Assembly (NCBI GenBank): GCA_002683405.1
Contig: NYTH01000017.1
Location: forward strand, 1 to 64,000
Direction: 5' to 3'
Length of the DNA: 64,000 nt
Source of the DNA: Salinisphaeraceae bacterium
Lineage (GTDB): Bacteria; Pseudomonadota; Gammaproteobacteria; Nevskiales; Salinisphaeraceae
The translations under genes were made by a program, and so were the position numbers. The notes beneath the pieces are model-generated. The model had not been told where the DNA came from. It did not search any database and saw only the letters and a list, made by a program, of their open reading frames with translations. This document shows, in pieces, positions 141 to 2,299 of the stretch (positions within the stretch are counted from its first letter, which is position 1; the number at the start of each line of letters is the position of its first letter).

Positions 141-690
141 ATTCCGGCCCACCGCCGCAGTTCCTACTCCAACAGCCAAGCCGGAATTTCCTCCTCCATC
201 ACCTCATCGTCGCCAACGCCGTACGCGGACCGGGAGGAAAACGGACAATGGTTGCCTGTGGAAAGAGCTAATGCGCCACCCACGCAGTTCGTCCTCCAGC
301 AATCAAGCCGGAATTTCCTCCTCCATCACCGCATCGTCGCCGACGCCGTACGCAGACCGGGAGGAAAACGGAAAATGTTTGCCTGTGGAAAGCGTCAATG
401 CGCCACACCGCGAGATCCTCCGCCAGCAATCAGGCCGGAATTTCCTCCTCCTTCAGCGCCCCGTCGCCAGCGCCGTACGCGGACCGGGCGGAAAACGGGA
501 AATGGCCGCCTGTGGAAAGCGCTAATGCGCCACTCACGCCGTTCGTCCGCCAACAATCCAAGCCGGAATTTCCTTCATCATCGCTTGTTCGCCAACGCAA
601 TACGCGGACCGGGACAACAAGGGCCAGGGCTATTCGCGAAAAACCTCAAGCCGTCGCAACCACAAGGCTGGATATAGCTCCTCAAAACGC
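141..690 (+). repeat. tRNA-associated ~127 bp tandem repeat, array 1
   Basis: The phrase CCGGAATTTCC recurs at 181, 308, 435 and 563, a period of 127-128 bases. A partial unit lies between the tRNA-Pro end and 181, and the fourth unit decays after about 620. Each good unit holds TTTCCTCC, then about 40 bases later a block containing GACCGGG-GGAAAACGG; TTTCCTCC can pair with GGAGGAAA in units 1 and 2. Units 1-3 then have an ATG about ten bases after the purine-rich block. Two of these start seven-codon frames (248-271 and 502-525, reading M-[VA]-A-C-G-K-[SR]); the third starts at 375. No protein-coding gene is convincing here. The same core recurs in array 2. Confidence 0.8.
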
Positions 691-729
691 TGTCGCCCGG
701 CCGGACCATGCCTACCGCGACCTGGCACT

Positions 730-747
730 AAAGCGCCGACGGCTTTT
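730..747 (+). terminator. weak terminator-like hairpin after array 1
   Basis: AAAGC at 730-734 can pair with GCTTT at 742-746, followed by one more T and C. It is the only terminator-like structure between array 1 and the next tRNA. The stem is short, so this is tentative. The rest of 748-875 shows no gene. Confidence 0.25.
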
Positions 748-875
748 CATTGAGCGCGGGTGATATGCCAGCGAGCGCCGCACGGGTCGCCTGCGAAGCT
801 TGACGGGGTAAAGGATGAGCGCGGCCGCGGTGCGACACCGGGCGGGTGGACGTGTCAGTCGCGAGTCACCGCAAA

Positions 876-906
876 TTGGCGTGCCGGCTGTCGAAACGCA
901 TACAAT
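876..906 (+). promoter_or_regulatory. candidate promoter of tRNA-Arg/His
   Basis: TTGGCG at 876-881 and TACAAT at 901-906 are 19 bases apart, and the tRNA-Arg gene begins at 921. The -10 is good, the spacing is slightly long. It would start a tRNA-Arg to tRNA-His transcript. Confidence 0.4.
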
Positions 907-920
907 TCAAAGCCGATCAG

Positions 921-997
921 GCGCCTGTAGCTCAGTCGGATAGAGCAACGGCCTTCTAAGCCGTGGGTCACAGGTTCGAATCCTGTCAGGCGCGCCA
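921..997 (+). tRNA. tRNA-Arg(TCT)
   Basis: The acceptor strands GCGCCTG and CAGGCGC pair perfectly. The anticodon loop CTTCTAA gives TCT. The T-arm contains GGTTCGAATCC and CCA is encoded. It reads the AGA and AGG arginine codons. Pro-Arg-His order before tig is common in related gammaproteobacteria. Confidence 0.95.
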
Positions 998-1103
998 GTC
1001 AGTAGCCGTGCCGGTTCGCGGGTCTGGTATGGCCGAATTCGCGAACTTGTGGCAGGATGCGCCGCTCGTGAGGGCGGCGGGGCCGTCCGGTAGCGGTATC
1101 AAT

Positions 1104-1180
1104 GGTGGGCGTAGCTCAGTTGGTAGAGCCCCGGATTGTGATTCCGGTCGTCGTGGGTTCGAGTCCCATCGTCCACCCCA
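1104..1180 (+). tRNA. tRNA-His(GTG)
   Basis: Anticodon GTG sits in the loop TTGTGAT. The acceptor strands GTGGGCG and CGTCCAC pair with one G-T wobble. The extra 5' G at 1104 faces C73, as expected for histidine tRNAs, and CCA is encoded. Confidence 0.95.
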
Positions 1181-1220
1181 TAGTCAGCGGCATCGAATTT
1201 TGGCCGGTGCTGCGTTTGAC

Positions 1221-1454
1221 GGAGTCTGAAAGACTCCATCGGTCGGTCACGACCGAATGCGCAAAGCGCTTAAGCGTTTGCGAATTCATTTCGCAAAAAG
1301 CGCAGGTGAACTCGGGCAGGAGCCCGATGTTCACCGCCGAGCGCAAGAAGAACTTTTCGGTCATGGATGGCCGAACGCGCGAAGCGCGTAAGCGGTTGCG
1401 AATTCATTTCGCAAATAGCGCAGGTGAATTCGGGCAGGAGCCCGATGTTCATCA
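1221..1454 (+). repeat. duplicated hairpin-rich module between tRNA-His and tRNA-Lys
   Basis: About 97 bases (1239-1335) recur at about 1357-1453, offset 118. Each copy holds a hairpin built on a TTGCGAA stem (1277-1297 and 1396-1414) and a 13-bp stem with one bulged T and an AGGA loop (1305-1335 and 1423-1453). Where the copies differ in the long stem (C to T on both arms) pairing is kept as G-T wobbles, which suggests selection on RNA structure. A further perfect hairpin, GGAGTCT-GAA-AGACTCC, precedes them at 1221-1237. No reading frame here is convincing. Confidence 0.7.
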
Positions 1455-1462
1455 TATACAAA

Positions 1463-1538
1463 GGGCCGTTAGCTCAATTGGCAGAGCAGGGGACTCTTAA
1501 TCCCAAGGTTGAAGGTTCGATTCCTTCACGGCCCACCA
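1463..1538 (+). tRNA. tRNA-Lys(CTT)
   Basis: Acceptor strands GGGCCGT and ACGGCCC pair perfectly. The anticodon loop CTCTTAA gives CTT, so it reads AAG. CCA is encoded. Its 3' end is copied 98 bases downstream (1612-1637), directly before repeat array 2. Confidence 0.93.
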
Positions 1539-1637
1539 TCTCTCCCCATTCTCTCTAACGCCCGACGGCTAATGACTGCCGGTACGACTGCGTCGTGCTC
1601 GCTTGCGCTCGGGTTCGATTCCTTCACGGCCCACCAT
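1514..1637 (+). repeat. 26-bp direct repeat of the tRNA-Lys 3' end
   Basis: The last 25 bases of tRNA-Lys plus one more (1514-1539) recur exactly at 1612-1637. The 72 bases between them hold no tRNA body and no integrase. The layout is like a tiny att-flanked segment. It also resembles the E. coli tyrT operon, where distal repeats begin with a copy of the tRNA 3' end. Confidence 0.85.
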
Positions 1638-1670
1638 TTCCCGCCCACCAGCAAGTTTTCTACGCCCACA

Positions 1671-2299
1671 ATCAAGCGGGAAATCCCTCCTCCAGCAACC
1701 TGCCTACGCGTGCGCAGTACGCGGACCAGGAGTAAAACGGAAGATGGCTGTTTTTGTGAAAGAGCCGTAGCGGGCCTCGCACGCCGTTCCAACGCCCACA
1801 ATCAAGCGGGAAATCCCTCCTCCAGCAACCTGCCTACGCGTGCGCGATACGCGGACCGGGAGGAAAACGGCCAATGGCTGCCTCTCGAAAGAGCCATACC
1901 GGCCTCGCACGCCGTTCCAACGCCCACAATCAAGCGGGAAATCTCTCCTCCGAGATTCGTCGAACTCCCGCGCGGCACGCCGACCGGGAGGAAAACGGAA
2001 CAAGGTCGACTACAATTCGGCCCAATGGCCTTGCCGCGACTTTCTACGCCCACAATCAAGCGGGAAATTCCTCCTCCAGCAACCTGCCTACGCGTGCGCG
2101 ATACGCGGACCGGGAGGAAAAAGGCCAATGGCTGCCTCGCGAAAGAGCCATTCCGGCCTCGCACGCCGTTCCAACTCCCACAATCAAGCGGGAAATCCCT
2201 CCTGCTAGATCGGTTGAATTCCCACGCAGTAGGCGGACCGGGAGTAAAACGGAAGATGGCTGTCTAAAAAAACTGGCAGAGCGGCCTGCCTTTTACGCC
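1671..2299 (+). repeat. tRNA-associated ~128 bp tandem repeat, array 2
   Basis: ATCAAGCGGGAAAT starts units at 1671, 1801, 1929, 2055 and 2183 (spacing 130, 128, 126 and 128). Units share CTCCTCC near the start, then GACCGGGAGGAAAACGG, then an ATG, then GAAAGAGCC in the better copies, and end in the CGCACGCCGTTCCAAC region. The core GACCGGGAGGAAAACGG is also in array 1, so the arrays are one family. Short frames begin at 1744 (to 1770), 1874, 2128 (to 2208) and 2255 (to 2266). Unit 3 has lost the ATG. The last unit runs into a terminator-like hairpin. Confidence 0.85.
2275..2294 (+). terminator. terminator-like hairpin ending array 2
   Basis: GGCAG at 2275-2279 pairs with CTGCC at 2286-2290, followed by TTTT. 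It sits at the end of the last repeat unit and could end a tRNA-Lys/repeat transcript. From 2300 to 2518 I see no gene or clear signal. Confidence 0.4.

Follow-up and report, generated by a model that had tools for sequence, protein, structure and literature searches.

Tandem repeats behind tRNA-Pro and tRNA-Lys

The window analysed here is a stretch of 64,000 nucleotides that begins at base 1 of a contig (C17) of a draft genome (3.72 Mb, 58 contigs, 43 tRNA genes, the trailers of which were all read), and the region upstream of its first tRNA gene, tRNA-Pro(UGG), is therefore not visible. Nine homologous units lie in register in two arrays, four behind this tRNA-Pro and five downstream of tRNA-Lys(CUU) (Table 1). 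An initial annotation of this DNA had described nine units in two arrays, and both the register and a 17-base core bear this out: eight of the nine units carry the core with 0-2 mismatches, while shuffling of the window leads one to expect 0.24 chance matches at up to three mismatches. The repeat family is thus real; spacings vary between 125 and 130 bp, the period given for it having been 127-128 bp. The statement that both arrays start just after a tRNA gene holds for Pro, whereas the Lys array is directly preceded not by tRNA-Lys itself but by a 26-bp duplicate of its 3' end. Both arrays had also been said to end near hairpins, but we detect no excess of hairpins there, with two terminator-like sites against a mean of 4.1 in shuffles. 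That annotation had linked the repeats to tRNA genes, and had regarded copies at many random sites elsewhere as evidence to the contrary. In the whole genome, all of the core copies found at up to two mismatches (15/15) belong to five arrays directly behind tRNA genes and on the tRNA strand (Pro-TGG, Pro-GGG, Pro-CGG, Val-CAC and Lys-CTT), and at this threshold scattered copies are not found; of the matches with three mismatches, the one examined, on contig C3, has no tRNA nearby.

Table 1 Features of the Pro and Lys arrays, with positions in the window
Feature	Position	Strand	Basis
tRNA-Pro(UGG), encoded CCA 138-140	64..140	+	ARAGORN and Rfam
Trailer hairpin of tRNA-Pro, CCA-anchored: 140-148 (A76 + ATTCCGGC) paired with 180-188 (GCCGGAATT)	140..188	+	Model match 138-197, 75.6 bits; covariation; fold
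Pro array unit 1, core 227-244	177..303	+	Repeat comparison
Pro array unit 2, core 354-371	304..430	+	Repeat comparison
Pro array unit 3, core 481-498	431..556	+	Repeat comparison
Pro array unit 4, shortened, degenerate (GGACCGGGACAACAAG)	557..640	+	D3, 77%; lowest identity in Pro array
tRNA-Lys(CUU)	1463..1538	+	
Duplicate of tRNA-Lys 3' end (GGTTCGATTCCTTCACGGCCCACCAT), carrying family trailer	1612..1637	+	D6, 91% over 34 bases to 1514-1547
Trailer hairpin after duplicated Lys end, CCA-anchored: 1636-1644 (A + TTTCCCGC) paired with 1676-1684 (GCGGGAAAT)	1636..1684	+	Model match 1634-1693, 72.2 bits; covariation
Lys array unit 1	1673..1802	+	Repeat comparison
Lys array unit 2	1803..1930	+	Repeat comparison
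Lys array unit 3, greatest divergence	1931..2056	+	Repeat comparison
Lys array unit 4	2057..2184	+	Repeat comparison
Lys array unit 5, without tail	2185..2280	+	Repeat comparison

A separate repeat, in two 95-nt copies 118 bp apart, lies between tRNA-His and tRNA-Lys (1239-1451), with a partial copy after tRNA-Arg (1021-1045). At the contig end, positions 1-63 are AT-rich and have no second copy in the genome, and the acceptor 5' strand of tRNA-Pro(UGG) reads CGGAATA, with two mismatches to TACCCCG, while contig C8 has CGGGGTA. Tandem 5' halves of tRNA-Pro(UGG), with a period of about 187-191 bp, are found upstream of the intact gene (C8:175501-175785, i.e. L142 1503-1786; L141 840-1477; L143; L144); they end in the anticodon loop (TTTGGG), and sequence complementary to the acceptor and anticodon strands is present in the units as well. 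The tRNA-Pro 5'-half array of the window's own genome runs into the end of C8. Probably, positions 1-70 represent an assembly break inside such an array, and the end of C8 probably joins the start of the window.

A hairpin anchored at the CCA end

The deeper unit of this family is not the 127-mer but a hairpin in the tRNA trailer, and the hairpin, its other tRNA hosts and its covariation were all missed by the initial annotation. It extends from A76 of the encoded CCA through trailer position +1 to about +48, with YCCUCC next, and occurs in 14 copies at 12 tRNA loci (Pro x3, Leu x4, Lys x2, Tyr, Val and a displaced Phe). The CCA is followed by TTTCCCGC at Leu-CAA, Leu-TAA, Leu-TAG, Tyr, Val-CAC and the duplicated Lys-CTT end, by ATTCCGGC at the three Pro genes and Leu-CAG, and by TTTCGCGC at Lys-TTT; the reverse complement (GCGGGAAA, GCCGGAAT and GCGCGAAA, respectively) lies about 40 nt downstream, and YCCTCC comes after it. 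Two of the copies stand behind 3' remnants of tRNA-Phe, near the end of contig C28.

When the 14 copies are aligned, 99.2% of cells in the 9-bp stem (A76 plus eight bases) are paired, with two-sided changes at four stem pairs (13 cells) and a covariation of 0.291, compared with 0.074 for shuffles and no more than 0.010 for slid controls; since the 14 trailers are paralogues, however, few independent compensatory events are represented. A76 itself is paired in 13 of the 14 copies, although its predicted pairing ranges from 0.08 to 0.79 and is weak for Tyr and Val. In a blind test for a stem abutting the CCA (p<0.01), 12 of the 43 tRNAs of this genome scored, whereas in G010, a complete Salinisphaera genome, 2 of 46 did so; the 12 include ten members of the hairpin family as well as Asn and Ser-GGA, whose stems differ in sequence. 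At least 29 tRNAs of this genome are without such a hairpin, and the strong covariance-model matches in the genome are all tRNA-linked. We rejected an intrinsic terminator (GC hairpin plus U run) as an identity for the family trailers: none of 11 family tRNAs has one within 250 nt downstream, compared with 11 of 32 other tRNAs (P=0.022).

Two larger folds were also considered and rejected, namely a within-unit CCUCC:GGAGG pairing, which lacks covariation and shrinks in the Lys array, and the full array as a single structure, which folds no better than shuffles (z 0.77).

A different kind of complementarity was observed in the genome's own Ser-TGA trailer (L180) and in Salinisphaera Arg trailers (L298, L237, L238, L249), where 15-16 nt are perfectly antisense to the T-arm region of the same tRNA (p<0.005 from shuffles). 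The targets are tRNA positions of about 46-61, or 59-74 in Ser; for Gln-TTG in G010 the antisense stretch is 14 nt long and covers positions 58-71.

Arrays at other tRNAs

The portion that is repeated in the arrays consists of the 3' strand of the hairpin (GCSGGAAW) and the sequence behind it. Periods range from 127-130 bp for Pro and Lys and 124 bp for Leu-CAG to 81 bp for Leu-TAG, 60 bp for Leu-CAA and 59 bp for Tyr. With few exceptions, the copies can still pair with the 5' strand that heads the array they belong to: internal copies read GCCGGAAT in Pro and Leu-CAG, and GCGGGAAA in Lys, Leu-CAA, Leu-TAG and Tyr. The outermost units are often degenerate. GACCGGGAGGAAAAC is restricted to the Pro, Lys and Val units (the 127-bp type), and the GGAGG core is missing from the Leu and Tyr arrays. 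A common long unit, in which homology begins exactly after the CCA, is found at Pro, Lys-CTT and Val-CAC despite their differing tRNA bodies, and tRNA 3' ends are duplicated at Lys, Pro-CGG and Phe.

On contig C28 (257029-257400; L273 1730-2100), a 3' half of tRNA-Phe with a family trailer lies far from the intact tRNA-Phe on C43, and a second duplicated Phe end is also present on C28. This remnant has the appearance of the distal end of an integrated element, with the original Phe trailer seemingly displaced by integration. A partial 5' copy of tRNA-Gly(TCC) was observed on C27 (63270-63790; L186 about 3270-3790), with the Tyr array on one side and the intact tRNA-Gly on the other, and resembles the Pro 5'-half arrays in layout.

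Phylogenetic range and a parallel at tRNA-Arg

The genus of the window belongs to the family that holds Salinisphaera, and its trigger factor is 60-61% identical to that of Salinisphaera. Judged by sequence, the family of repeats was found only in this genome: the DNA unit has no match in 40 relatives, the exact core-unit pattern has none in 84,980 species, the exact hairpin pattern occurs in this genome only among 85 genomes of the order, and the covariance model gives borderline matches at most in 368 other gammaproteobacterial genomes. Salinisphaera has kept the Pro-Arg-His-Lys tRNA cluster upstream of tig but has none of these arrays in it; the arrays are therefore probably a later addition. 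A phage or plasmid origin was rejected, given that the family has no match on plasmids and that one viral contig carries the bare 17-mer core with neither tRNA nor hairpin.

A hairpin of comparable position, but of unrelated sequence, exists behind tRNA-Arg(UCU) in Salinisphaera and one g3 genome, and is an independent parallel within the same family. Its stem of about 11-19 bp usually includes the CCA (CCA:UGG) and varies widely in sequence between species; in an alignment built from hairpin-bearing trailers, over a 17-bp stem that takes in CCA:UGG, 98.2% of cells pair, nine pairs show two-sided changes (32 cells), G-U pairs are tolerated and covariation is 0.571 against 0.188. As tRNA-His and tRNA-Lys follow, the hairpin lies mid-operon and is not a terminator. 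A few Arg-TCT genes of the family are without it, that of the window genome included. Tandem repeats of about 180-186 bp stand behind the Arg hairpin in many genomes, and in S. shabanensis (L085) every unit includes the tRNA 3' end, which is the layout of the E. coli rtT repeats.

Possible roles of the trailer hairpin

We tentatively favour, at slightly less than even confidence, the reading that a structured tRNA 3' trailer acts in cis in the tRNA precursor and that amplification of its outer part gave rise to the repeats. Such a role is favoured by the start of the stem at A76, its single orientation, its covariation, its restriction to tRNA loci, the complementarity kept by internal array copies, the scarcity of intrinsic terminators behind family tRNAs and the Arg parallel; the weak A76 pairing predicted at Tyr and Val, the many tRNAs lacking a hairpin and the paralogy of the 14 trailers speak against it. 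In the primary transcript, WUUCCSGC after the CCA would fold back on GCSGGAAW about 40 nt downstream, and A76 and the first eight trailer bases would consequently be paired. Such a hairpin may shield the 3' end from premature trimming or wrong cleavage and may set the timing of trailer removal, with RNase E the likely cutter. RNase E reportedly gives E. coli proline tRNAs their mature 3' ends. Positions +1 to +3 are WUU in all 14 hairpin copies, which is consistent with the W-U-U part of the RNase E consensus RN|WUU (PMC5222698), although position -2 is C, and RNase E makes use of neighbouring stem-loops (PMC9841416). However, the putative site is itself paired when the trailer is folded, so the hairpin could block cutting rather than promote it. 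The tandem arrays could have arisen through unequal recombination involving the 3' strand together with what lies behind it, and extra copies would be tolerated because each can pair with the single 5' strand; they may even serve as spare barriers, yet a processing role leaves the additional units unexplained, which counts against it.

Additionally, RNase P pairs with RCCA, and pairing of RCCA slows the enzyme (PMC9433436), so the hairpin may also decide which of the two ends, 5' or 3', is matured first. A broader form of this idea, which we consider rather unlikely, is that CCA-anchored trailer hairpins throughout the Salinisphaera family lock RCCA, such that the trailer is removed before RNase P binds the CCA, and that different sequences arose at different tRNAs, each prone to tandem expansion.

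Several alternative hypotheses may explain the arrays. Selfish or mobile DNA could have spread to tRNA CCA ends, where insertion is perhaps harmless, and expanded there in the manner of a satellite, with the hairpin acting as a recombinase recognition site or a DNA fold-back. The long unit common to Pro, Lys-CTT and Val-CAC, which starts right after the CCA whatever the tRNA body, is what such spreading might produce, as are duplicated tRNA 3' ends resembling insertion scars, the frequent decay of outermost units and the confinement of the family to one genus. Nevertheless, we judge this explanation doubtful, if a serious contender: the core copies at up to two mismatches are all tRNA-linked, no integrase was noted adjoining the arrays, the three Y1_Tnp genes have no copies beside them, plasmids give no match and the single core match on a viral contig is not near a tRNA, while the compensatory changes, together with the G-U pairs of the Arg analogue, favour a function as RNA.

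It is improbable, in our estimation, that the trailers yield stable RNAs of about 60-128 nt that act in trans, either as sponges of small RNAs or by targeting ribosomes or mRNAs with their CCUCCUCC and GGGAGG motifs, in the way of the 3' external transcribed spacer of E. coli leuZ. Trailers processed by RNase E into sponges offer a precedent, as relayed by one source (PMC5222698, citing Lalaouna 2015), and both the conserved YCCUCC and the presence of GACCGGGAGGAAAAC in the 127-bp units would suit such RNAs; the absence of the GGAGG core from Leu and Tyr, the failure of the full array to fold better than shuffles and the lack of a match to any known RNA family argue against them. Decoy translation of minigenes, suggested by a constant arrangement of GGAGG, a 10-nt spacer and ATG in 13 of 16 units (with short peptides such as MAACGKR) and by the small open frame, tpr, of E. 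coli rtT, was rejected as very improbable, since there is no codon signal: frames run from 3 to 126 codons, third positions are not more variable than others and the motif is missing from the other arrays.

Significance and comparison with known systems

The trailers of bacterial tRNAs are commonly regarded as short, disposable sequence. In the present case, compensatory change maintains a CCA-anchored trailer structure in two sequence families that are unrelated, and in this genome such a structure occurs at about a quarter of the tRNA genes; we found no report of such hairpins in the literature searched, the coverage of which is partial. Their recurrence suggests that the exposure of the tRNA 3' end is under selection, and a hairpin that hides the CCA leads to a clear prediction on the order of processing, because RNase P requires base-pairing with the CCA (PMC9433436).

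Among known repeats, CRISPR loci have short identical repeats, unique spacers and cas genes, whereas our units are homologous over 125-130 bp and without unique spacers, so that, on repeat layout, the exclusion of CRISPR in the initial annotation stands. Its exclusion of REP was equally sound. REP/BIME elements with RAYT transposases likewise comprise short palindromic repeats in arrays, and Y1_Tnp genes are present in this genome; however, those elements are dispersed, intergenic, in both orientations and of high copy number, unlike 14 hairpins at tRNA 3' ends only and in one orientation, and we rejected a REP/RAYT identity as no copies lie near the genome's three Y1_Tnp genes. Duplicated tRNA 3' parts (here at Lys, Pro-CGG and Phe) are also a mark of integration scars at tRNA 3' ends, but tRNA sequence does not define the family trailer, which begins after the CCA. 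The E. coli 3'ETS-leuZ is, similarly, the trailer of a tRNA precursor, there cut by RNase E 15 nt downstream of the tRNA (PMC5222698) and here possibly freed by it, yet the window family is structured from +1 and repeated.

The closest known kind is RtT (RF00391), the distal repeats of E. coli tyrT/tyrV, which the initial annotation had rightly chosen as nearest analogue while noting that its sequence differs. Indeed, RF00391 gives no match in the window at gathering score, nor on the array loci up to E=1 or 0.5, against 134-138 bits for E. coli as positive control. Matches to it do occur outside the enterobacteria, behind tRNA-Tyr in Salinisphaera G010 (66 and 59 bits; L241 3069-3378) and, more weakly, behind Arg genes. 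In both systems, repeats of 100-200 bp lie in tandem immediately after a tRNA gene and on its strand, rtT lying within a stable-RNA transcript, and both involve duplicated tRNA 3' ends, here at Lys, Pro-CGG and Phe. They differ in that each E. coli unit contains a tRNA 3' end, whereas the window units at 177-556 do not, and in that rtT shows no CCA-anchored hairpin, while here a family trailer is carried by many tRNAs. The CCA-anchored trailers offer a concrete context in which to view the repeats that follow E. coli tyrT, which have long gone unexplained.
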